Source: Burkholderia stabilis
Lineage (GTDB): Bacteria; Pseudomonadota; Gammaproteobacteria; Burkholderiales; Burkholderiaceae
DNA length: 64,000 nucleotides
Reading direction: 5' to 3'
NCBI RefSeq assembly: GCF_001742165.1
Contig: NZ_CP016442.1
Span: 3,348,001-3,412,000 of the forward strand
Under the pieces are notes generated by a model. That model saw only the letters and a program-made list of their open reading frames with translations. It was not told the DNA's origin and searched no databases. Both the position numbers and the translations under genes were made by a program. Below are positions 1 through 16,840 of the stretch, piece after piece; within the stretch, counting starts at the first letter, position 1, and each line of letters begins with the position of its first letter.

Positions 1-562
1 TTTTGATTGCGATCTTGTTTCCCTGCATGTTCTGATACAGCCCGATCTCGATGTATTTCTGAAGCCACCACCGCGCGCTATCCAGCCATTTCTTTCCTTT
101 TATCGTGAGGGTGGGATAGAGATTGGTGCCGTAATCCGAGCAATAGTAGTAGCCGTAACTCACATAGTAATCGGGTGGTTTATGCCCGCACCCGATATGG
201 CGCATCATGAAATTGCCGTGGCGGGACCAGTCCGAATTGATGCTTTTCGGTTTGAGCAGATCCTCCCGCCGATGCAGCAGTTCATGAACGACTTTCTTGT
301 CTTTCCACGGATCCCATGACGTTGCGAATTTCTTGACGGTCTCCCATGCGCTCGACACGCTGACCTTCCGGACTGTTTCCCAGTACTCACCGTGAAGCGG
401 AAGGTAGTAGAACGGGCAAGTGCCAATGATGGAATCCGCCGCCGGCGTCACCTGTTTGTCGCAGATGCTGATCTGCACCTTCGGCCGATCCTTGTACCCC
501 GTCGGCGTCAGCATCCCCGAACCGGTGCCGAGCAAGTTGTTGTCCTGTTGTCCGTCAGCCAT
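1..562 (-). CDS. Hypothetical protein downstream of VgrG, possible T6SS cargo (3' part outside window)
   Basis: At least 187 codons are open from an ATG at 560-562, and the C-terminus lies beyond the window edge. The start overlaps the end of vgrG by 8 bp (the vgrG stop is at 555-557), so the two are translationally coupled. The visible protein has no signal peptide and no clear membrane helix. It is rich in aromatic residues, with a Tyr/Cys-rich stretch around residues 135-150 (YYVSYGYYYCSDYG) after an HIGCGH motif. I do not recognise a catalytic family. Genes placed directly after an orphan vgrG often encode effectors or adaptors loaded on that spike, which is the basis for suggesting cargo. 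An immunity or accessory gene would be expected beyond the window. Confidence 0.6.
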   Translation of the reverse strand, partial: MADGQQDNNLLGTGSGMLTPTGYKDRPKVQISICDKQVTPAADSIIGTCPFYYLPLHGEYWETVRKVSVSSAWETVKKFATSWDPWKDKKVVHELLHRREDLLKPKSINSDWSRHGNFMMRHIGCGHKPPDYYVSYGYYYCSDYGTNLYPTLTIKGKKWLDSARWWLQKYIEIGLYQNMQGNKIAIK

Positions 563-3242
563 TCGATTTCCCTAGAAACTTGACCACGACGTCATGCGGC
601 ACGTGGCTCTGCGTGAGCCCCGTCTCTCCCGCCGCGTTGGTGACGCCTTCCGAAAGCAGCTTGCCGTTCGAGAACATCTGGTACCGCGTGTTCGCGACCG
701 GAATGTCGGTGCCGGCCCAGTGCGCGATGAACGCCTGATCGTAGTTGCCGCCCGAGTTCGGCAGCGTCGGCATGGCTTGCGACAGGTGCGTCGGCCCGCT
801 GAACGCGTGCTGCGCCCCCTTGATGTCGATCTTGCCGGGCGCGTGCACTTCGATGTTGCCGTCCGCGATGCGGATGTAGGCGCCGCCGGACGTCAGCAGG
901 ATTTCCTTTGCCGCCGCGCCTTCGATCGACTCGGTGACGGCCATCAGCTTCAGCGCCTTCTGCGCGGTCAGCTCGATGTTGTCCGCGTGCGCCTGGACTT
1001 CGACCTTGCCCTTGCCGGCGAACAGTTTGATCCCCGCGTTCTGCGCGAACAGGCTGATCCGGTCGAGGACGCTCGCGATCAGCGATTTCCCCGCGGCGAC
1101 GTGCGTGCTTTGCCCGCTGACGAGGTTGATGTGCTGGTCCGCTGCAAGCTGTGCGGACTGCTGCGTGGACATCCCGATGCCGGCCGGGCTGCCGAACAGC
1201 ATCACGGGCTGCTTGAACGCGTTGGCGCTGCCGGTTCCGCCGCCCGCGGTGCGCCCGCCGGATGCGCTGCCGCTCACGCTGTTCTGCGTCGCGTCGGTGA
1301 ACTGCTTCAGCGCCGTGTGGCCGGGGTCGAGCGATTCGCCCTGATGCTGCGCGCTGACGTCCGACATGGCCTCCATCAGCCCTTCCGCGCGAACGAGCTG
1401 CTGTTGCGTTTCCTGCACGTCGAGCGGCTGGCTCGCCGGCGGTTTCGGATACGTCGTGACGTACAGGCCGCGATTCGCGCGCACGGCGCCGTATGCGTCC
1501 GAACGCAGGTCGAAGCCGCTGCCGAGATAGCTGCCGCGGTTGTTGCCCGTGTGGTCGATCAGGTAGCCGAGGTGCAGGTGCGCGTTGGTCTGGCTGCTGT
1601 ACAGGTGCACGCGGTTCTGCGCCGTCGCGTCGTCGAGCACCAGCTGGTTGTAGCCGGCGCCCGCGTATTCCTTCGACCGGTAGCCGGACAGGATCCCGTT
1701 GGTGTGCCACTGCGGGCTCGTCGCGCCGTTGTACAGCTTGCCGACGATGATCGGGCGGTCGCAGTCGCCGCCGACGAAATCGACCAGCACCTCCTCGCCG
1801 CTGCGGTGCGGGTGAACGGCGCCGTAGCCGTTACCCGAATCCGACGCCACGGCGCGCAGCCAGCACGATGCTTTCTCGTCGCCGTCGTTGAGGCGGTCCC
1901 AATGGAAGCGGACCTTGACCCGGTTCAGTTCGTCGGTGTGGACTTCCTCGCCTTGCGGCGCGACGACGATCGCCGATTGCAGGTGCATCGGCGGTTTCGC
2001 ATGCTCGAGCGGGCTGCGGAACGGTACGGTCGTGCGCTGTGCTTCGACGCTGATCCGGAAAAAGCCCTCGCTGCCGTCGGCATGGCGAACTTGCGACGCG
2101 TCGGCGCCGCCGGCCTGCACGATGCGGCCGACCTCGGCCTGCAGGCTGTGCGGCAGGGCGGTCTGCTCGCCGGCGACGGGCAGGTTGTTGACGATGATCC
2201 AGGCCGTCTCGATCACGACGAATTCGCGCTGGCCGGCATCGTCCTTGTCGTGTTCGGGGTGATCCGCGAGCGCGAACGTGCGGCCCGCATCCATGCGCCG
2301 CACGCCGCCGACGCCGTGAAAGCGCTTCGCGTGCGACTCCTGTTCCTCCATCCAGATCTTCGACAGATGGTCGCCGCGGGACTGCTCGGGGTACGTGTAG
2401 GCGCCCGTGTATTCGTAGACTTCGAGCTGCTGCGGCAGGTCGCCCTGGTTCGCGATCGTCGGCGTATGGGTTGCTTTCGGATTGGACGCGGTGGGCGGCT
2501 GCTTGTAGTCGAACGTGCGGGTGGTGCGCTCGACGCTTCGCAGCGTGCGCGTGCCGGAGAACTGGGTGAGCGTGTCGGCTTCGTCGCACGTGCCCGCGTG
2601 ATGGAAGCGCACGGTTCGCGGCGACAGCGTGGGCAATGCATCGATGCGGTCGACGATGACGAGCCGGTGCGACTTGCCGTCCTTGTCCTGCTCCCAGAAC
2701 CCGTACAGGCCTTCCGATTCCATCAGGCGATGCACGAAATTCCAGTCGTCCTCGTATTGCATGCAGAACGAGCGCGGCGGCAGCGGCTGGTAGAGCTTGA
2801 ACGTGAAGCGGCCCTTGGCTTGCGGATGCTGGTTCAGCACGTCGGCGATGATGTCGTCGGCCGAGCGGTCCTGCCAGATGCGCTGATCGCGGCGGAACCG
2901 GAGGAAGTGCAGGAACGACGCGAAAACGATCTGGTAGTGCGTGACGCCGCTGTCCGACCCGAGCCGGCGGGCCGCGTGCACGTAACCGTGGTGCGGCGCG
3001 TACGTCTGGTCGGCCTGCAGGATCCACAGCGTCACCGGCTGCGCGATCAGTTTCTTGAGTTCGAGGTTGTCGGATACCGACACGGTATCGACGATGAACT
3101 CGAAATGGCGCCCGAGCCGCGATCGTCCCTTGACGCGCTGCGGCAGCAGGACGTCCGGGCCGAGCGGCGTATCCAGTTTGACCAGCCGTTCGTGCTGAAC
3201 CGGTCCGGCCAGCAGTGCGCTTCTTAACTCTTGCGAATTCAT
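555..3242 (-). CDS. vgrG: Type VI secretion system tip protein VgrG
   Basis: 895 aa from the ATG giving MNSQELRSAL; an in-frame GTG at 3275 would add 11 residues but its purine-rich stretch is too close. VgrG trimers cap the Hcp tube and carry effectors into target cells. The N-terminal half is the gp27-like region (roughly residues 20-350, with the typical LDTPLGPDVLLPQRV opening). It is followed by the gp5-like OB-fold around 430-520 (VRFHWDRLNDGDEKASCWLR, then the HRSGEEVLVDF and GDCDRPIIVG motifs). A DUF2345-like repetitive beta region lies at about 660-800, and a short C-terminal extension of about 70 residues follows. No attached enzymatic domain is evident. No tss core genes are in the window, so this is an orphan vgrG. 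Long reading frames on the opposite strand are GC-driven shadows. Confidence 0.93.
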   Translation of the reverse strand: MNSQELRSALLAGPVQHERLVKLDTPLGPDVLLPQRVKGRSRLGRHFEFIVDTVSVSDNLELKKLIAQPVTLWILQADQTYAPHHGYVHAARRLGSDSGVTHYQIVFASFLHFLRFRRDQRIWQDRSADDIIADVLNQHPQAKGRFTFKLYQPLPPRSFCMQYEDDWNFVHRLMESEGLYGFWEQDKDGKSHRLVIVDRIDALPTLSPRTVRFHHAGTCDEADTLTQFSGTRTLRSVERTTRTFDYKQPPTASNPKATHTPTIANQGDLPQQLEVYEYTGAYTYPEQSRGDHLSKIWMEEQESHAKRFHGVGGVRRMDAGRTFALADHPEHDKDDAGQREFVVIETAWIIVNNLPVAGEQTALPHSLQAEVGRIVQAGGADASQVRHADGSEGFFRISVEAQRTTVPFRSPLEHAKPPMHLQSAIVVAPQGEEVHTDELNRVKVRFHWDRLNDGDEKASCWLRAVASDSGNGYGAVHPHRSGEEVLVDFVGGDCDRPIIVGKLYNGATSPQWHTNGILSGYRSKEYAGAGYNQLVLDDATAQNRVHLYSSQTNAHLHLGYLIDHTGNNRGSYLGSGFDLRSDAYGAVRANRGLYVTTYPKPPASQPLDVQETQQQLVRAEGLMEAMSDVSAQHQGESLDPGHTALKQFTDATQNSVSGSASGGRTAGGGTGSANAFKQPVMLFGSPAGIGMSTQQSAQLAADQHINLVSGQSTHVAAGKSLIASVLDRISLFAQNAGIKLFAGKGKVEVQAHADNIELTAQKALKLMAVTESIEGAAAKEILLTSGGAYIRIADGNIEVHAPGKIDIKGAQHAFSGPTHLSQAMPTLPNSGGNYDQAFIAHWAGTDIPVANTRYQMFSNGKLLSEGVTNAAGETGLTQSHVPHDVVVKFLGKSNG

Positions 3243-3355
3243 TACCAGTGCTCGCTTTTTTGTGCTGGTTCGCACGCTCTCTCGTGCGGAATTCGGTAAT
3301 TGTATGAGATTACGGGTTGTATCTCGAATTTGCCGGCCGGCGGCGGCTTAGACGC
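3243..3355. other. Intergenic gap between vgrG and the displaced moaC end
   Basis: This stretch holds the upstream region of vgrG. In the reconstructed pre-insertion chromosome it would directly follow moaC. It contains a palindromic patch near 3278-3290 (CTCTCTCGTGCGGAATTC region) but no promoter I can defend. Confidence 0.4.
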
Positions 3356-3462
3356 TCAACCCGGCGCGTCTTCCGCCTTCCAGTCGCCCGACTTGCCGCC
3401 GCGCTTTTCCCGCACACTCACGTCGGTGATCACCATCCCGCGATCGACGGCCTTGCACATGT
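3356..3462 (-). pseudogene. Displaced original 3' end of moaC (attachment-site remnant)
   Basis: Read on the minus strand this encodes the last ~35 residues of MoaC ([19 protein letters not shown] and onward), then Asp-Ala-Pro-Gly and a TGA at 3356-3358. The intact moaC at 8929-9408 has the same residues but ends Glu-Glu-stop. Similarity stops abruptly at 3462/9026, upstream of which this copy reads into unrelated island DNA. It therefore looks like the chromosomal moaC 3' end left behind when an element integrated and supplied a replacement 3' end. It is not translated as MoaC. Confidence 0.85.
3369..3462. repeat. 94-bp direct repeat, distal attachment site of the moaC island
   Basis: The 94 bp match 8933-9026 in the same orientation with a single difference (A at 3416, G at 8980). 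The copies lie 5,564 bp apart and bracket all the island genes. This is the pattern left by site-specific integration at the 3' end of a protein gene, where one copy completes moaC and the other marks the far junction. Confidence 0.85.
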
Positions 3463-3534
3463 GTGGATACGGCTTGTGGCCTTGGGTGACGACCTTTTGA
3501 ATCAATGACTTACTGCGTTCGATCCATTCGATCT

Positions 3535-3584
3535 TGTCCCACTCGGTTGATGAAGTGGGACAGCAGCGGGACGGATTTGGGACA
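3535..3584. promoter_or_regulatory. Cluster of TGGGAC(A) motifs, candidate integrase arm-binding sites
   Basis: TGTCCCAC (3535-3542) and GTGGGACA (3555-3562) form a perfect 8-bp inverted repeat with a 12-bp spacer. CGGGAC (3567-3572) and TGGGACA (3578-3584) follow. The same hexamer recurs at the other end of the island (8801-8820) next to the integrase fragment. Short repeated sites flanking both attachment cores are typical arm sites of tyrosine recombinases. A simple transcription-factor site or hairpin remains possible. Confidence 0.4.
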
Positions 3585-3627
3585 ACAATCGCGACCGCAC
3601 TGTGCCGCAAGTTTACGCGATTGAACC

Positions 3628-3789
3628 GGTCGGACGGAAGTACATGTCGCGGCACGATGTGGCATCTCTGATGCGATCCTGCGTCGAATTCTGGAGTATG
3701 CGCCGACGCGTGGCGACGTGCTGCACCGGCATTACACGAGTCTCGATGCCCGAGATGTCGCAGGGCCGCTCGAACAGATTCAGGTGACT
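3628..3789 (+). pseudogene. Decayed tyrosine integrase C-terminus, relic 1
   Basis: One frame through 3661-3780 reads [20 protein letters not shown], then [20 protein letters not shown]. This matches the end of a phage-type tyrosine integrase: the box before the nucleophile, the HRHY segment with the catalytic Tyr, and a short terminal helix. There is no start codon and no upstream catalytic domain, so about 1 kb of gene is missing. The strand is opposite to that of the integrase N-terminal fragment at 8508-8789, so the two are not halves of one simply interrupted gene. Confidence 0.6.
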
Positions 3790-3851
3790 TTACTCTCGTC
3801 AGTTATCTCCTTCACGTAGAATTGACCATCATGTTCGGACGTAAGGTCGAG

Positions 3852-4760
3852 ATGCAACTGCTAAAGGACATCGTGACGTTGTTGAGCGACAAGGACGGTT
3901 CGCTGACGGACGCGCTTCTGAAGATGAAGGTTCTGCTGCACCGGATCGGACACAAGGAACTTGCCGATTGGGTTAACGACGAGCTGAACGGATACGGCGA
4001 CGGCAAGCCGGTACCCGCCTATCGCGTTGTTGGCGCACGATTGTTGGGAAACGTTCAGAACAGCGCGTGGCAGTTTTCCAAGCACGGACTACCAACCACG
4101 CATTTGCCGGACGACGTGCGCAAGAGTCTGTTGGAAGCCTCGTTGCGTGAATCGGTGGGTGTGCTCGAACAATTCGCGGCGAAGCCAGACACCAGTCTGT
4201 CGATCCCCATCCCACCAGAATTCAACAGTTTGCTTGGCAAGGCGATCCAAAATGCGTGGGTCACGAGTGCTTGGACGCAGATTGAAGCGACCCAAATTTT
4301 AAGTGTTCTGATCGAGATTCGGTCGCGCTTGTTGGATTTCGTGCTGAATGTGCAAGATCAACTTGGTGACGTGGCAGACGACAATATGAAGGAAGCGGCG
4401 AAAGGCATCGATGCTGCCGGGATGTTCGCATCAGCGGTGTTCGGTGACAACGCGACGGTCGTGATCGGGAATAGTAACGAAACCACGATTACGAACACCG
4501 TGACCAAGGGCGACTTCGCCGCACTGGCGAAAGCCTTCAAGGACACCGGCGTCGCCGAAGGGGATGTGGACGAACTGAAGGCCGCTGTAGACGATGACGA
4601 TCCGAAGGCCGTAGCCGAAACGAAGCAATTCGGTCCGAAAGTGAAGGCTTGGATGGGGAAGATGTCCGAGAAGGCAATCAGCGGCGCGTGGAGTATCGGG
4701 ATTGCTGCCGGTGGGAAGTTGCTGGCCGATGCCCTTGGGGGCTATTACGGCATCAAGTGA
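3852..4760 (+). CDS. AbiTii-domain abortive-infection protein
   Basis: 302 aa from the ATG at 3852, chosen because AAGG lies 5 nt upstream; an ATG at 3831 would add seven residues without a ribosome site. The first ~180 residues match the AbiTii family: LLSDKDGSLTDALLKMKVLL, then HRIGHKELADWVNDELNGY, a SIPIPPEF motif and an EIRSRLLDFVL helix. A second module (about residues 205-302) starts with a Gly/Asn-rich VVIGNSNETTITNT strand segment, then a KGDFAALAKAF helix, and ends in a hydrophobic IGIAAGGKLLADALGGYYG tail that might touch membrane. AbiTii proteins are associated with abortive infection against phage in lactococci; the biochemical activity is not established to my knowledge. It leads a three-gene cluster. 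Confidence 0.75.
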   Translation: MQLLKDIVTLLSDKDGSLTDALLKMKVLLHRIGHKELADWVNDELNGYGDGKPVPAYRVVGARLLGNVQNSAWQFSKHGLPTTHLPDDVRKSLLEASLRESVGVLEQFAAKPDTSLSIPIPPEFNSLLGKAIQNAWVTSAWTQIEATQILSVLIEIRSRLLDFVLNVQDQLGDVADDNMKEAAKGIDAAGMFASAVFGDNATVVIGNSNETTITNTVTKGDFAALAKAFKDTGVAEGDVDELKAAVDDDDPKAVAETKQFGPKVKAWMGKMSEKAISGAWSIGIAAGGKLLADALGGYYGIK

Positions 4761-4833
4761 CGATGGTCGTCAACGAAGTGCCGAACATAGTCAGATGACG
4801 CTTGCTCGTTGGCTTTCTTGACAGGAGATACCG

Positions 4834-5070
4834 ATGACCCCGGAAGAAAAACGCGCCGAAGAACAAGCCGCTCTTGAGCGTGAGCGTCAGGCATTTGAAC
4901 GGCGGCAGAAAGCCTTCATCAGTGTCACTAGGCAGTTTCTCCCACACGGATCGGGAAATCCGTCCGCCGACGACCTGAACGAACTAGATGCAGCAGATGC
5001 TGAATGGCGCGCGGCTGATGCGGAGATGCAGCGCATCGGCGAAGAGATTCGGACAGGCAAACGACGGTAG
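4834..5070 (+). CDS. Small charged coiled-coil protein in the defence cluster
   Basis: 78 aa with a good ribosome site (AGGAGA, 6 nt before the ATG). The protein is mostly Glu, Arg, Ala and Gln in two predicted helices, roughly residues 3-35 (EEKRAEEQAALERERQAFER) and 48-74. A Gly/Pro break lies between them, which suggests a helical hairpin or coiled coil. It has no signal peptide, membrane segment or cysteine. It lies 73 bp after the AbiTii gene and 11 bp before the HEPN-like gene, so the three are probably co-transcribed. I know no family for it. Its position is compatible with an antitoxin or adaptor for the next gene, but that is inference. Confidence 0.6.
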   Translation: MTPEEKRAEEQAALERERQAFERRQKAFISVTRQFLPHGSGNPSADDLNELDAADAEWRAADAEMQRIGEEIRTGKRR

Positions 5071-5081
5071 AGCGACCAGCG

Positions 5082-5660
5082 GTGATAGATCAGATACAGT
5101 CCGAACTATTGGACACCATCAACGACGTTGACGCGTTCCGTATCTTGGTTGCGGACCTACACGATGATCTGGTGGGTAAGGTCGCGCGGTTCCGGCAGCT
5201 TGCGGACCTTTCTGTTGCGCTCGGTTCATTGGGGACATTGATGCCGGGTGGCGAGACGGCTTCTGCCGCGTGGACGGAAGCACGGTCTAGCTTTGTTCAC
5301 GGCAACTACGTTGCGACTGTATTGCTGTGTCAAGGTCTCGCCGAACATATGCTTGCCGCATACCTTACCATCGGCCTCGATGCAGAAGAGTTACCGGACC
5401 GCGTGTCATTCAACGACACATTGAAGCGATGCGTGTCGCGTGATGTCATCACCGTGCAGGATGCTGATGATCTGCGTCGTCTCATGAATCTGCGCAACCC
5501 GCTGACGCACTACCGTTCAATCGATGATCCCTCGAATCTCTCTCGACGTGTCTTGAACAGTATGATTCCGGCAGAGACTCACTTACTTACCGATGCCACC
5601 TTCGCGATGAGTATGGCGATTCGGTTGCTGGCGCTACCGGCGTTCCGATTGGGTGACTAG
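5082..5660 (+). CDS. HEPN-like protein with RX4H motif
   Basis: 192 aa from a GTG, 11 bp after the preceding gene. The fold looks all-helical. Residues ~70-100 (FVHGNYVATVLLCQGLAEHM) and ~130-150 (DADDLRRLMNLRNPLTHYRS) resemble DUF4145/HEPN-type proteins. RNPLTH is an exact R-X4-H motif, the active site of HEPN ribonucleases, in which Arg and His from two protomers act together. HEPN RNases are common toxins in toxin-antitoxin and abortive-infection systems. The small charged protein just upstream could be its partner. Sequence alone cannot show whether the motif is catalytic, because many DUF4145-type proteins keep it without a known activity. Confidence 0.6.
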   Translation: MIDQIQSELLDTINDVDAFRILVADLHDDLVGKVARFRQLADLSVALGSLGTLMPGGETASAAWTEARSSFVHGNYVATVLLCQGLAEHMLAAYLTIGLDAEELPDRVSFNDTLKRCVSRDVITVQDADDLRRLMNLRNPLTHYRSIDDPSNLSRRVLNSMIPAETHLLTDATFAMSMAIRLLALPAFRLGD

Positions 5661-5666
5661 TATTCC

Positions 5667-5858
5667 AGCCAACGGTGAGATTGGCCCGTGGCGTTGCCAT
5701 CACTTACGGTGTCAGTGCTATGGTCGATGTCCCGCACCCTTGGACATGCATCGAAGCGCGGTGATGTGTGACACCGGCATTACATCAGCCTTGATGCCCG
5801 CGATCTTGCAGGGCCGTTGGAAGGGATTGAGGCGGCGTTGCTGACGTGTGCTTCGTGA
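5667..5858 (+). pseudogene. Decayed tyrosine integrase C-terminus, relic 2
   Basis: The frame from about 5667 reads ...SMSRTLGHASKRGDV, an in-frame TGA at 5769, then HRHYISLDARDLAGPLEGIE and ends at the TGA at 5856. It is clearly related to relic 1 ([19 protein letters not shown]) and is in the same orientation. The premature stop and the missing upstream domain show it is dead. The two relics bracket the AbiTii, coiled-coil and HEPN genes, which suggests the island grew by successive integrations. Confidence 0.6.
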
Positions 5859-5928
5859 TTTCGTCAGGTGTCGAGGGATTGGCCGAAAGGCATAATGTCT
5901 ACGATGCCACCCTGATTCGATTGCCACG

Positions 5929-6855
5929 ATGAAGAAGTCACGCCGCGCAAAACCTGAACAGCCGGGCATCGCCTTCGAGAAGGTGGTTGCCGCGATTCAG
6001 TCGCAGATCGATCCGCAAGCTACCGTGACGCACAGCGAATTTCTGATCGACCGTCTCGGCCAAAGACGGCAGTTTGATGTGGTCGTGCGGGGAACGTTCG
6101 CTGGTCAACGGATGTTGGGAGTCATCGAGTGCAAGGATTTGGGCGGCAAGGTCGGAACGCCGGACGTTGACGCGTTCGTCACGAAGGCGCACGACATCAA
6201 GGCCAACTTCAAGGTACTGGTATCGCGTCGCGGTTTCACCAAACCGGCGCTGGCGAAATGTGCGCATTATGGCGTGCAGGCGCTTTCGTTGCTGGACAAC
6301 GATCCTGCAAACAGGAATTTCTTTATCGGCACGCGGTGGGAAGCAGACGTTATCCGATGGGGACGGCTCTCGTTATCGCTCCATTTTGTCAATGAACCAG
6401 CACAACCTGTCCACTTCGACGCGGGAAATGTCATCATTGCTGGGAAGAGGGTGATCGACTGGTTCACGAACTATCTTCTCGATAACACAGCGGAAGTCTC
6501 AGGCTTCGGATGGGTAGTGAACTTCCGGGGAGTGTTCGACAAACCACAGACAGTCGCGGTGCGTGCTGGCGAAGAATATCAATGTTCCGCGATCTCGTTT
6601 GCGGCGGAGCGGGTTTGCCAACAGCTTGAACGATACGTTGGCATTAGCGGAACCGGCTTCTATAGCTGGCTTGAACAAAAGGCTACGTTTCCGCCCGGTA
6701 CGCAAATTCTGATGGATGCTGTCCCTATGGATTTCGCGCAATGGCAACCGCGTGGTGGTGAGCAAAGGCCAACGACCGGATTCTTGGAAGTTAAACTGGA
6801 AGTCCATTCCATGTTTGATCGGGTTCCTGACGCGATTCAACTGGATGCGCTGTAG
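5929..6855 (+). CDS. Mrr-like restriction endonuclease-fold protein
   Basis: 308 aa. Residues ~12-125 form an Mrr_cat/PD-(D/E)XK-type domain: FEKVVAAIQSQI helix, RQFDVVVRG with the first acidic residue, then GVIECKDLGGKV with the E-x-K pair, and a VLVSRRGFTKPALAKCAHYG segment. Mrr-type nucleases cut modified or foreign DNA and need no cognate methylase; none is seen nearby. The remaining ~180 residues are a mixed alpha/beta region I do not recognise, possibly a sensing or target-recognition module. The start ATG has no clear ribosome site. It follows integrase relic 2 and precedes a membrane protein by 26 bp. Confidence 0.65.
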   Translation: MKKSRRAKPEQPGIAFEKVVAAIQSQIDPQATVTHSEFLIDRLGQRRQFDVVVRGTFAGQRMLGVIECKDLGGKVGTPDVDAFVTKAHDIKANFKVLVSRRGFTKPALAKCAHYGVQALSLLDNDPANRNFFIGTRWEADVIRWGRLSLSLHFVNEPAQPVHFDAGNVIIAGKRVIDWFTNYLLDNTAEVSGFGWVVNFRGVFDKPQTVAVRAGEEYQCSAISFAAERVCQQLERYVGISGTGFYSWLEQKATFPPGTQILMDAVPMDFAQWQPRGGEQRPTTGFLEVKLEVHSMFDRVPDAIQLDAL

Positions 6856-6881
6856 GCCGCGTAAACTACCAAGATCAAGTT

Positions 6882-7580
6882 ATGCAGACGGGCACGGTTG
6901 GACGCTTCTTTTGGCACTGGCTTCGATATGCAATTCGAGATGCCGTTGCGCAAGCATTCGGATGGCCGACGCTGCTGAGTGCGGCCGTTCTTGGCTACAT
7001 ACTGCCGAAGGTCGGAATTGGTGATATCCCCAATCAAATTGCGAACAATCTTGCTATCGCGGCTGTCAGTTGGGCCATCGGGTTTGTTGTATACCTGTTC
7101 GCAGCTTTTCTGAAGGCTTATTGGCGCATCGCTCCCCTCAACATGCTGATCACGGACGACGTGCGGTCGCCTGACTTTGCTTTCAACGAGGAGTGTCGGG
7201 GCTATAGCGTGGCGACTATCGTGCAGAACAGGTCCGACGTGCATTTGAGCTGCAACGCGTATGTCATGAACGCGCCGCAGCACGATGGCTCGACCGGTCC
7301 GCGCTTTGTCGAAAAATTTGACCTGCCGCCGAAGTCGAAGAAGACGGTGTTCGTTGCATACTGGTTTTCGCGTGAACCGCCCCACGCCGACGACAAAGAC
7401 ATCAGATTGAGTGGTCCGACCGGATCAGGCTTTGGCGGCAATATGTGCTGGGTCTCGGGGACGGCAGCAAGGCTTCATGTTCGAATTCATCCTCAAGATG
7501 GGGAAAGCAAGGATATTTACTGTCGAGTATGGATCGACACGGCTACCCGTCAATTAAGAGCGCAACAGTTGCCGGAGTGA
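6882..7580 (+). CDS. Two-helix membrane protein of the island, unknown function
   Basis: 232 aa. Two hydrophobic segments, about residues 28-45 (PTLLSAAVLGYILPKVG) and 57-80 (LAIAAVSWAIGFVVYLFAAF), are followed by a ~150-residue soluble part rich in beta residues and polar turns (KFDLPPKSKKTVFVAYWF). No nuclease or protease motif was seen. It starts 26 bp after the Mrr-like gene and may be co-transcribed. Membrane proteins next to defence nucleases may be membrane-damaging effectors or anchors; here this is only context. It could equally be an unrelated cargo gene. Confidence 0.5.
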   Translation: MQTGTVGRFFWHWLRYAIRDAVAQAFGWPTLLSAAVLGYILPKVGIGDIPNQIANNLAIAAVSWAIGFVVYLFAAFLKAYWRIAPLNMLITDDVRSPDFAFNEECRGYSVATIVQNRSDVHLSCNAYVMNAPQHDGSTGPRFVEKFDLPPKSKKTVFVAYWFSREPPHADDKDIRLSGPTGSGFGGNMCWVSGTAARLHVRIHPQDGESKDIYCRVWIDTATRQLRAQQLPE

Positions 7581-7715
7581 TGCTGTGCAACCGTTAGGGC
7601 ATAGCGCCATGCTTCGGTTTCGCACGTCTGTGACAATGCCTTTGGGGACTCTTGCCGTATCAACCTAACGGTGTCCTGACACAAGCGTCCGCTGTCTCTT
7701 CACGGATCTACAGCC
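7581..7715. other. Intergenic gap within the island
   Basis: The gap contains an inverted repeat, CCGTTAGG near 7591 and CCTAACGG near 7664 (arms ~8 bp, long spacer). No integrase relic is present, unlike the two other inter-module gaps. Confidence 0.35.
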
Positions 7716-8468
7716 ATGCCTCTCTCTCCACATCAGATTTCAGCAATGTACGAAGCCGCGAAGCGTGTCTACTCGGACGGCCAGAAGCCTGCACGGGCAC
7801 TCGACGGACTCGAAGCTGACGGCGTACCAAGGGCAGTAGCCTCCGCTTGCATTCGGAACTACCAGCACATGCGGCGTGGTGAACGCTATCGACGGACGCT
7901 CACGGGGGCGACGGCGGAATATTTGCTGGATCGCATTCATCAAGAATTCGGGCACGCTGGACTGAAACTGGCGCTGCAATCGCTGTGGACGCACATCGAA
8001 TATCTAGAGCCAGTTCGGCGGTCCGTATGCCGTCAAGAGCGAACGCTTCATGAGCGGTTCTCAGCACGATTATCGGTCACCGCGGCGCCGATCTATCCAG
8101 ATGAAGTATCTCCGCATGACTTCGAGAACCGTAAGTTCATCGAAGGCGCGACGCGACAAGTGCTTGTCAGTCAGTACGAGCGTGATTCGCGTGCACGGTC
8201 GGCCTGCATACAGCATTGGGGTGCGGTGTGTTATGTATGCAGGTTCGATTTTCAGAAAATATATGGCGACATGGGGCGTGGATTCATTCACGTACATCAC
8301 CTTAAAGACATTGCTAGCATTGGCATTGAATATGAGGTTGATCCTCATGCCGATCTTCGACCTGTATGCCCGAATTGCCATGCAATGCTACATACACAAC
8401 GCCCAGCCATTGACATTGATGAGTTGAAAGCAATGCTGGCCGCAAGGCGCAGCCGTTCCAATCGTTGA
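7716..8468 (+). CDS. HNH endonuclease, McrA-like
   Basis: 250 aa. The C-terminal half is an HNH nuclease domain: a zinc-type CYVCRFDF pair at about residue 170, then GRGFIHVHHL with the catalytic His pair, VDPHADLRPVCPNCHAMLH with the central Asn and second Cys pair, and the final His. The spacing resembles McrA and related modified-DNA restriction nucleases. The N-terminal ~150 residues are helical (AMYEAAKRVYSDGQKPARAL) and unknown to me; they may recognise the target. No methylase gene is adjacent, which agrees with a type IV-like or otherwise self-sufficient nuclease. It is the last cargo gene before the integrase fragment. Confidence 0.75.
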   Translation: MPLSPHQISAMYEAAKRVYSDGQKPARALDGLEADGVPRAVASACIRNYQHMRRGERYRRTLTGATAEYLLDRIHQEFGHAGLKLALQSLWTHIEYLEPVRRSVCRQERTLHERFSARLSVTAAPIYPDEVSPHDFENRKFIEGATRQVLVSQYERDSRARSACIQHWGAVCYVCRFDFQKIYGDMGRGFIHVHHLKDIASIGIEYEVDPHADLRPVCPNCHAMLHTQRPAIDIDELKAMLAARRSRSNR

Positions 8469-8507
8469 ATTCCGACTATTGCTAGAACGTCAAACATTCG
8501 TCGGGGG

Positions 8508-8789
8508 CTAGGTGCGGTTTGCGGGTGAATACGCGACAACGAAGTCGCCCGCTTCGATTTCATTCATGAAGCGCCATACGTCCTTGATGAAGCGGCTGAT
8601 GATGTCTTCGAGGATGTTTGCTTTGGCCTTGCTACGGCTGACGAAGTTTCCGCGATCCATCTCAATTTCGACGGATCGCGCCCATCGCTCCGCATCTGCG
8701 CGAGTGCTGAAGGTGTTTGCTTCGTCGGCGGCTCCTCTACGCTGAACACGTACTTGCCATTTCCCGTCTCGCTGGCGAATTGAGGCCAT
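8508..8789 (-). pseudogene. Truncated tyrosine integrase, N-terminal DNA-binding part only
   Basis: 93 codons. The first ~65 residues (MASIRQRDGKWQVRVQRRG, then FSTRADAERWARSVEIEMDR) are the arm-site-binding domain typical of phage integrases, where a beta-sheet is followed by the start of the core-binding helix. After FIKDV the reading becomes WRFMNEIEAGDFVVAYSP and stops, so the catalytic domain is absent. The gene starts 143 bp from the moaC-side attachment repeat and reads away from it, the normal place and direction for an island integrase. The tail after residue ~70 may belong to other DNA joined by deletion. Confidence 0.65.
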
Positions 8790-8800
8790 TCCAGTCTCCT

Positions 8801-8820
8801 GTGGGACAGGAGTAGGACAA
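8801..8820. promoter_or_regulatory. GTGGGACAGG/TAGGACAAG motifs beside the integrase fragment
   Basis: Two tandem GGACA elements lie just upstream of the integrase start and match the cluster at 3535-3584 at the other island end. They are candidate arm-type binding sites for the lost integrase. Confidence 0.35.
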
Positions 8821-8928
8821 GACCGATTTTTCGTATGCTCGCAGTCAGGTTCGAGGCGATTTCGTCAGACGACGCCGCCGCCGGGTGGGTGGATACGGCA
8901 CGAAAGGAAGAGCTTATAAAACAATCCC

Positions 8929-9408
8929 TTACTCTTCCGCCTTCCAGTCGCCCGACTTGCCGCCGCGCTTTTCCCGCACGCTCACGTCGGTGATCACCAT
9001 CCCGCGATCGACGGCCTTGCACATGTCGTAGACGGTCAGCAGCCCGACCTGCACGGCGGTCAGCGCTTCCATCTCGACGCCGGTCCGGCCGAACGTCTCG
9101 ACCTGCACGACGCAGTGGACGCCCGGCAGCGCGTCGTCGAGTTCGAAGTCGACGGCTACGCGCGTCAGCGCGAGCGGATGGCACAGCGGAATGAGGTCGG
9201 CCGTGCGCTTGGCGCCTTGGATGGCCGCGATGCGCGCAACGCCGAGCACGTCGCCTTTCTTGGCCTTGCCGTCGCGGATCAGCGCGAACGTGGCCGGCAG
9301 CATCCGGATCGTGCCGCGCGCGATCGCGATGCGCTGGGTTTCCTGCTTGCCGCCGACGTCGACCATGTGCGCATGGCCGGCGGCGTCGAAATGGGTGAGT
9401 CCTGACAT
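8929..9408 (-). CDS. moaC: Cyclic pyranopterin monophosphate synthase MoaC
   Basis: 159 aa, full family length. MoaC converts the 3',8-cyclo-GTP product of MoaA into cyclic pyranopterin monophosphate in molybdenum cofactor synthesis. Family motifs are present: [14 protein letters not shown] at the N-terminus, [10 protein letters not shown] in the middle and the MCKAVDRGM active-site region with the catalytic Lys. CGGAG upstream of the ATG is a fair ribosome site. The last ~94 bp of the gene are the attachment repeat, so the current 3' end is island-derived: it reads ...KAEE-stop where the displaced original reads ...KAEDAPG-stop. The change is after the last conserved residues, so the enzyme should work. 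Confidence 0.95.
8933..9026. repeat. 94-bp direct repeat, moaC-side attachment site
   Basis: Partner of 3369-3462. It spans the last MoaC codons down to the penultimate codon. Beyond 8933 the sequence is island DNA, so the crossover lies inside this block. Confidence 0.85.
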
Positions 9409-15997: not shown

Positions 15998-16084
15998 CGC
16001 CCGGTACCGATTCCAATAACGATGGGGCGTACCGGCAGGAGGCGCCGGCGTCCCGACGAACCGCCCGCTGCGGCCCGCTTTCCC

Positions 16085-16840
16085 ATGCTCGCTCGATTGT
16101 CCGCCACCGACCGCTTCGCGCTGATCCAGGGCGCGCGCGACTATTCCCCGACACTGATGGCGATCCTCTCCTGGGGGCTCGTCACGGGCATCGCGATGAG
16201 CAAGTCGGTCATGACGCTCGGGCAGGCGAGCGCGATGTCGCTGCTCGTCTACGCGGGCTCGTCGCAGCTCGCGGTGCTGCCGCTGCTCGCCGCGAAGCTG
16301 CCGATCTGGACCGTGCTGCTCACGGCCGCGATGGTCAACACGCGCTTCGTGATCTTCAGCGCCGGGCTTGCTCCCCATTTTTCCAACCTGCCGCTGTGGC
16401 GGCGCCTTGCGATCGGCTATTTCAACGGCGACGTGATCTACCTGCTGTTCCAGAAACAAGGTTTCGCCTACGGCCACGTGCCGGGCAAGGAAGCGTATTT
16501 CTGGGGGATGGCGCTCGCGAGCTGGGTGTCGTGGCAGGTGTCGTCGCTCGCGGGCATCCTGCTCGCGAGCTTCTTCCCGGCGAGCTGGGGGCTTGAACTG
16601 GCCGGCACGCTCGCGCTGATCCCGATCATGGTGTCGGCGGTCGCGAACCGCTCGACGCTCGCGGCCGTTGCGGTCGCCGGCGTCGTGTCGCTCGTCGCGT
16701 TCGATCTGCCGTACCGGCTCGCGCTGCCGCTCGCGGTGCTCGCCGCGCTGGCGGCCGGCTGCACGGCCGATTTCTTCGTCGAGCGGGCCGACTGGCGGCG
16801 CATCCGCACCGAAACCGTGCAGGAAAAGGAGATCGAATGA
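16085..16840 (+). CDS. azlC: AzlC-type branched-chain amino-acid exporter subunit
   Basis: 251 aa from the ATG giving MLARLSATDRFALIQGARDY; an ATG at 16022 would add a basic non-conserved stretch. AzlC and AzlD form an inner-membrane exporter of branched-chain amino acids. The GARDYSPTLMAILSWGLVTG opening and YAGSSQLAVLPLLAAKLP are AzlC signatures, and seven or so hydrophobic segments follow. The azlD start overlaps its stop by 4 bp (ATGA). The start codon is the least certain part of this call. Confidence 0.85.
   Translation: MLARLSATDRFALIQGARDYSPTLMAILSWGLVTGIAMSKSVMTLGQASAMSLLVYAGSSQLAVLPLLAAKLPIWTVLLTAAMVNTRFVIFSAGLAPHFSNLPLWRRLAIGYFNGDVIYLLFQKQGFAYGHVPGKEAYFWGMALASWVSWQVSSLAGILLASFFPASWGLELAGTLALIPIMVSAVANRSTLAAVAVAGVVSLVAFDLPYRLALPLAVLAALAAGCTADFFVERADWRRIRTETVQEKEIE

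Follow-up and report, generated by a model that had tools for sequence, protein, structure and literature searches.

An island at the 3' end of moaC in Burkholderia stabilis, very probably a decayed member of a family of small moaC-targeting islands

In Escherichia coli, e14 and phage 21 make use of a tyrosine integrase that enters the 3' part of icd, with the incoming element supplying a replacement coding end and the native end being displaced. Integrases of the lambda type have an N-terminal domain and use repeats, spaced by about one helical turn, to either side of the core. In the island catalogues of Islander and TIGER, a restored target and a displaced fragment mark the two ends of an island (PMC4383910, PMC12424338). 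The locus considered here lies in a 64,000-nt stretch of Burkholderia stabilis DNA (NZ_CP016442.1, 3,348,001-3,412,000; henceforth the window), in which an island is bounded by two copies of the moaC 3' end; it resembles the catalogued islands in the marking of its ends and differs in that its target is a protein-coding gene. We consider it very likely that the island belongs, in decayed form, to a family of small islands inserting into moaC by site-specific recombination. As with e14 and phage 21 at icd, a housekeeping enzyme gene is affected in its 3' part and has its end restored by the element; unlike in those cases, the target is moaC, the islands are small with defence-like cargo, and no close integrase match was present in the phage records searched (see below).

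The island, its ends and the empty site

The window contains a 94-nt direct repeat, the two copies of which (93/94 identical) enclose 5.56 kb of DNA with a low guanine plus cytosine (GC) content; their coordinates, and those of the other features, are collected in Table 1. Searched against the 8.53-Mb, three-contig genome, the repeat matches only its two places in the window at an E-value of 0.001. An earlier note on this DNA had described a near-perfect repeat covering the last moaC codons, a drop in GC content between its copies and a truncated integrase beside the moaC-side copy, all of which are confirmed: GC content is 0.508-0.580 in 500-bp segments lying wholly between the copies, compared with about 0.63-0.75 over most of both flanks, and the integrase remnant is homologous to its relatives over residues 1-71 only. 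The open reading frames (ORFs) likewise bear out its proposal that the moaC-side copy completes the gene and that the far copy has a different stop (...AEDAPG) and joins vgrG, the far copy ending ...WKAEDAPG at a stop at 3356, with vgrG beyond. The window thus has what is looked for in a site-specific island, i.e. direct repeats matching the target at both ends, a restored target and a displaced native piece. A transfer RNA (tRNA) attachment site was considered and rejected, no tRNA having been found within the 64-kb window.

The comparison with relatives is based on 65 genus genomes, of which one (G058) was dropped as giving a spurious match only, leaving 63 relatives and the window; two extra stretches (G001 C27 and G003 C4) were added. 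The empty moaC-vgrG junction predicted by the earlier note was found in 17 of the 63 relatives fetched, where the right (vgrG) flank of the window aligns over about 2.9 kb from the moaC end; in seven of these 17, one of which (G061) has a duplicated moaC, the alignment begins within the first 8 flank bases. The other 46 have a different flank behind moaC, vgrG not following directly as in the window. It follows that the gene's own end is the far copy, the copy on the moaC side being the incoming one.

Second long copies of the moaC 3' end (at least 86 nt) are rare, occurring in only four (L041, L042, L131 and L114) of 102 other moaC loci (63 of the genus and 39 named, some from one and the same genome), and the two-copy arrangement in the window is therefore not attributable to chance. 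On the same fetched stretch, two of the 63 relatives have such a copy. One (G016) carries a 952-bp relict of the window's element, and the other (G061, locus L114) has two full-length moaC genes about 8.45 kb apart, enclosing a vgrG module, with no match there to the family integrase or to the left-end model; the latter is a whole-moaC duplication, a different event at the same place. As regards the case that the earlier note had set against its own reading, both copies in relatives without the island genes, these two are the only relatives with a second long copy on the fetched stretch.

The family left end lies at moaC in five of the 64 genus genomes, i.e. in the window, G003, G062, G044 and G016. 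The integrase of G003 is intact, that of G062 has two stops, and G044 and G016 hold relicts. In G003 the intact integrase and arm sites are on one contig and a second moaC-tail copy is on another, where comparison by eye identified the far copy, with an in-frame stop, together with arm sites and a native-type tail and flank; this appears to be one island split over two contigs. The predicted MoaC proteins of the 63 genus relatives have 162 residues in 42 cases and 159 in 17; in 31 the terminus is AED followed by two or three more residues. The 159-residue tail by itself was dropped as a marker of an island, 17 of the 63 relatives having that length; one of the genomes with a tail of this type (G006, L128) nevertheless has no match to the left-end model. 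A lone partial copy in G001 (C27, L125, at about 16046-16254) was rejected as a paralogue and reads as a decayed left element end away from moaC, in which the match to the moaC tail starts at residue 131; it suggests that the element owns its moaC tail.

Recurrence at moaC, the crossover core and the arm-type sites

Recurrence was assessed with the intact integrase of Paraburkholderia elongata as query in 398 Burkholderiaceae genomes and in order and class samples of 399 and 369 genomes; up to five candidates were scored per genome, so that the hits are lower bounds. The 42 integrase loci examined comprise 30 family, seven order and five class hits, the remaining family rows being without a locus. 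At least 12 family hits have 71% identity or more, and 12/12 are directly downstream of moaC. Six further hits of 54-58%, in small genomes, divide equally between moaC and a gene that looks pntB-like from its sequence; none of the 12 family loci of lower identity examined is at moaC. With two of seven loci in the order sample and one of five in the class sample, the moaC-adjacent total is 18/42, the hosts being Burkholderia, Paraburkholderia, other Burkholderiaceae and three more distant genomes. Among 80 named moaC loci, three have the family integrase or a moaC-tail repeat (P. elongata, P. lacunae and Paraburkholderia sp. BCC1885). On a tree of 43 integrases the moaC label needs two changes, against a shuffled mean of 14.4; moaC targeting is clustered, and does not form one clean clade.

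Sister integrases are located at the pntB-like gene (L190-L192 and L237, the last from G242). In G242 a 90-bp repeat of the end of that gene contains ACATGGACAA, and heptamers of the TGTCCA type precede the far copy.

A far copy of the moaC tail was found in 16 of the 26 loci tested, G061 adding a whole-gene duplication. The 15 islands that are bounded in this way extend over about 3-17 kb from the moaC stop to the far repeat. Within Burkholderiaceae islands the common identical stretch narrows to ATGTGCA, in codons 129-131, which is exact in moaC of 116/119 loci (a set containing some genomes twice); of the 471 seven-base windows in moaC, only one shows higher conservation. In E. coli MoaC, the Asp and Lys of the Asp-Met-Cys-Lys motif encoded here are catalytic. 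With a crossover at this place, some 95 bp short of the stop codon, the remainder of moaC, approximately its last 31 codons, has to be supplied by the element.

The proposed course of integration is that a lambda-type tyrosine recombinase recognises the Asp-Met-Cys-Lys codons, about 95 bp before the moaC stop, and that the element brings its own copy of the codons beyond, by which a working moaC would be rebuilt on one side, the integrase gene sitting directly behind it. The native tail would be pushed to the far end, in the window ahead of vgrG, and the N-terminal domain of the integrase would bind the heptamers, spaced 11 bp, that lie close inside either end. The window retains both ends and the cargo, but with its integrase reduced to the first 71 residues the island is unlikely to move by itself; the catalytic and N-terminal domains (PF00589 and PF24624) present in two relatives are both unreported in the window remnant.

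The predicted arm-type sites have a general layout, with a pair of heptamers, spaced 11 bp, shortly before the integrase start and more copies inside the far end, often with one inverted. Their variants differ among islands (TGTCCAA, TGTCCCA, TGCTCCA, GGCCTAA and TGCTCGA types) and match between left and right ends within islands, the score over 14 islands (L042, which has lost its left arm, and the distal island of L231 being left aside) being 187, compared with a permutation mean of 154.7, with 1/20,000 permutations as high. Such matching is as expected of lambda-type arm sites; a difference from the lambda-type systems is that the target, moaC, is constant and the arm variant has been exchanged repeatedly. 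The tree has four origins of TGCTCCA arms, every one accompanied by loss of integrase Arg5 (four pairs, sign test 0.125), a number of independent pairs with which significance cannot be reached. L194, with TGCTCG-type arms, yet retaining Arg5, stands outside these four pairs, as does L193 (GGCCTAA type). The L046 integrase is 69% identical to that of L041 in residues 1-62 and 92% thereafter, the corresponding values against L180 being 82% and 78%; it seems that the N-terminal domain can be exchanged independently of the rest.

One locus (L231, in G335) has two tandem moaC islands, the inner with TGCTCG-type arms at both ends and the outer with a GGCCTAA-type right arm. These tandem islands suggest, tentatively and with some doubt on our part, that an invariant attachment site in conserved enzyme codons, combined with swapped arm-binding domains and arm sites, may let islands with different arms stack without mutual excision. 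Pairs of arm domain and arm site that differ among natural islands, with four switches and one residue changing each time, offer a ready test of how such integrases read DNA.

The proposal that moaC is an integration hotspot thus stands as regards a recurrent site, there being other islands with intact integrases, matching arms and tail repeats, and is only probable as regards its being undescribed. No description of moaC as an attachment site was found in the excerpts considered from the literature on moaC and the molybdenum cofactor and from gene-integrity surveys, a body of work that does not extend to Mageeney et al. 2020 (TIGER). The word moaC is absent from the main text of PMC12884075 and PMC12424338, and in excerpts of six further papers (PMC5406005, PMC6108181, PMC3120642, PMC5585140, PMC12669606 and PMC3568122) it is mentioned for metabolism or fitness only. 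A lead, no more, is the CMGI-A island of Cupriavidus metallidurans, for which moaC is listed as a border gene with no attachment site given in the passages considered (PMC7019866). The islands would add to the known integration sites one that is used recurrently, in a cofactor gene of wide conservation and on its least variable codons, the conservation of which may explain how related integrases find moaC in distant hosts.

Alternative explanations and opposing evidence

It is unlikely that the islands are merely what is left of ordinary prophages or plasmids for which moaC is an incidental site, and do not form a family of small islands. The bearing of cargo on this was examined with 116 of 120 island ORFs of at least 100 aa from 15 islands, which were called mechanically, such that some may not be genes. 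Of the 116 proteins, two have matches to a phage DNA polymerase/primase family and six to one of DNA invertases, and L224 and L230 carry primase/AAA-type replication proteins, as prophage or plasmid remnants might. By contrast, no structural or packaging family is among the 25 commonest of 110 PHROG families in these proteins, or among the Pfam hits of the window cargo, and no relaxase or conjugation family is among the 25 commonest of 66 Pfam families. The 15 bounded islands are small, no integrase match in 53 phage and 2258 plasmid records reaches 60% identity (38% and 47% being the best among the matches listed), and 21 loci on viral contigs have at most 41% identity to the integrase.

That the paired heptamers are the integrase's own promoter or operator, rather than arm sites, is quite unlikely. 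In each of the 19 moaC integrases listed, the left pair immediately precedes the integrase start, as a regulatory element would, but the same variant recurs at the distant end of the island, in several direct copies and often with one inverted, co-varying with the left pair. Segmental duplication or homologous recombination at moaC, with inner genes arriving separately and no site-specific integrase, would fit a window integrase that is only a fragment and the whole-moaC duplication of G061, but is highly improbable given the same layout in several genera with intact moaC-adjacent integrases, the narrow common core, the matched end sites and the empty sites.

Several observations weigh against insertion of a moaC-targeting island family as proposed here. 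The arm match is weakest in the window itself, where its own score is 11 of 14, a value that 5/500 shuffles also reach; paired with the right ends of six other islands, its left arm attains 12. The far repeat was not found in nine of the 26 loci tested; four of the nine ended at a contig edge (L161, L222, L232 and L234) and the L046 stretch is only 10 kb, but L225, L132, L136 and L128 lack it despite 18-20 kb covered. Several far copies reach upstream of the core, with a longer moaC-like part than a simple model needs. ATGTGCA is missing from the far copy of the G016 relict, and moaC of L229, L231 and L233 has other sequence at that place. The targeting of moaC is not strictly confined to one clade, users of the pntB-like gene nesting inside the main group and L214 falling outside it. 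Excision and integration are steps that we infer, neither having been observed, and homology to AbiTii, HNH and Mrr proteins, from which a defence role of the cargo is drawn, is no proof of that role.

Cargo and feature coordinates

The cargo of the window island, which has counterparts in moaC islands of other genera, probably serves phage defence, judging from homology. The window AbiTii-domain protein is like the known AbiTii (PF18864, PADLOC) in passing the Pfam cut-off and differs in having an HEPN-like gene nearby; both genes recur near the far end of the moaC island of G253. The two recombinase C-terminal relics are from a tyrosine recombinase other than the moaC integrase.

Table 1. 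Features at the moaC locus of the window (positions within the 64,000-nt stretch; arm-type sites predicted)
Feature	Position	Strand	Evidence and remarks
vgrG	555..3275	-	Pfam; right flank of the site, outside the island; directly 3' of moaC in 17/63 relatives
Far repeat (attR)	3369..3462	-	Core at 3454-3460; displaced native moaC tail, reading to the stop at 3356
Right arm-type sites	3535..3584	-	Direct copies 3556-3562 TGTCCCA, 3567-3573 CGTCCCG, 3578-3584 TGTCCCA, 11 bp apart; right-end model, E 2.8e-17
Right arm-type site, inverted	3535-3541	-	TGTCCCA, inverted relative to the direct copies; within 3535..3584
Tyrosine recombinase C-terminal relic near right end	3670..3795	+	Five other islands have a similar relic, about 160-225 bp inward of the far repeat
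AbiTii-domain protein, 312 aa	3822..4760	+	PF18864, 7.3e-37, 127.8 bits (cut-off 27.6); PADLOC AbiTii; 74% to G253 gene beside attR
Small ORF, 78 aa	4834..5070	+	ORF only, between HEPN-like and AbiTii genes; no homologue among island ORFs
HEPN-like protein, 192 aa	5082..5660	+	RNPLTH motif by eye; HepT-like, E 0.068 (weak); 88% to G253 moaC-island protein
Second, inner recombinase C-terminal relic	5727..5843	+	Contains a stop
Mrr-type restriction-endonuclease-like protein, 308 aa	5929..6855	+	PF04471, 9.7e-07, above cut-off
Cargo protein, 232 aa	6882..7580	+	No family; 55-60% to L219 and L221 proteins
HNH-endonuclease-like protein, 250 aa	7716..8468	+	PF01844, E 0.0033, below cut-off; 75% over 140 aa to G146 moaC-island protein
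Truncated tyrosine integrase, 93-aa ORF	8508..8789	-	Residues 1-71 (8577-8789) homologous; 66% to G003 integrase over 71 residues
Left arm-type sites	8802..8819	-	TGTCCCA (8802-8808), TGTCCTA (8813-8819), 11 bp apart; left-end model, E 9.7e-20
moaC, 159 aa	8929..9408	-	ORF; PF01967, 2.7e-57, full-length; element-type 3' end (...WKAEE)
moaC-side repeat (called attL here)	8933..9026	-	Repeat comparison
Inferred crossover core ATGTGCA	9018..9024	-	Met-Cys and first base of Lys in Asp-Met-Cys-Lys motif (residues 128-131)

Across the 116 cargo proteins the commonest Pfam families are resolvase (six), ADP-ribosylglycohydrolase and the resolvase helix-turn-helix (four each), and FRG and HNH (three each), and the PADLOC matches in island cargo include AbiTii, a type IV restriction enzyme and candidate systems. 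The moaC site marks a collection point of small islands with such defence-like cargo in Burkholderiaceae. The moaC island of G003 (L239, contig C4) encodes a large protein in which a VgrG-like region was recognised by eye.

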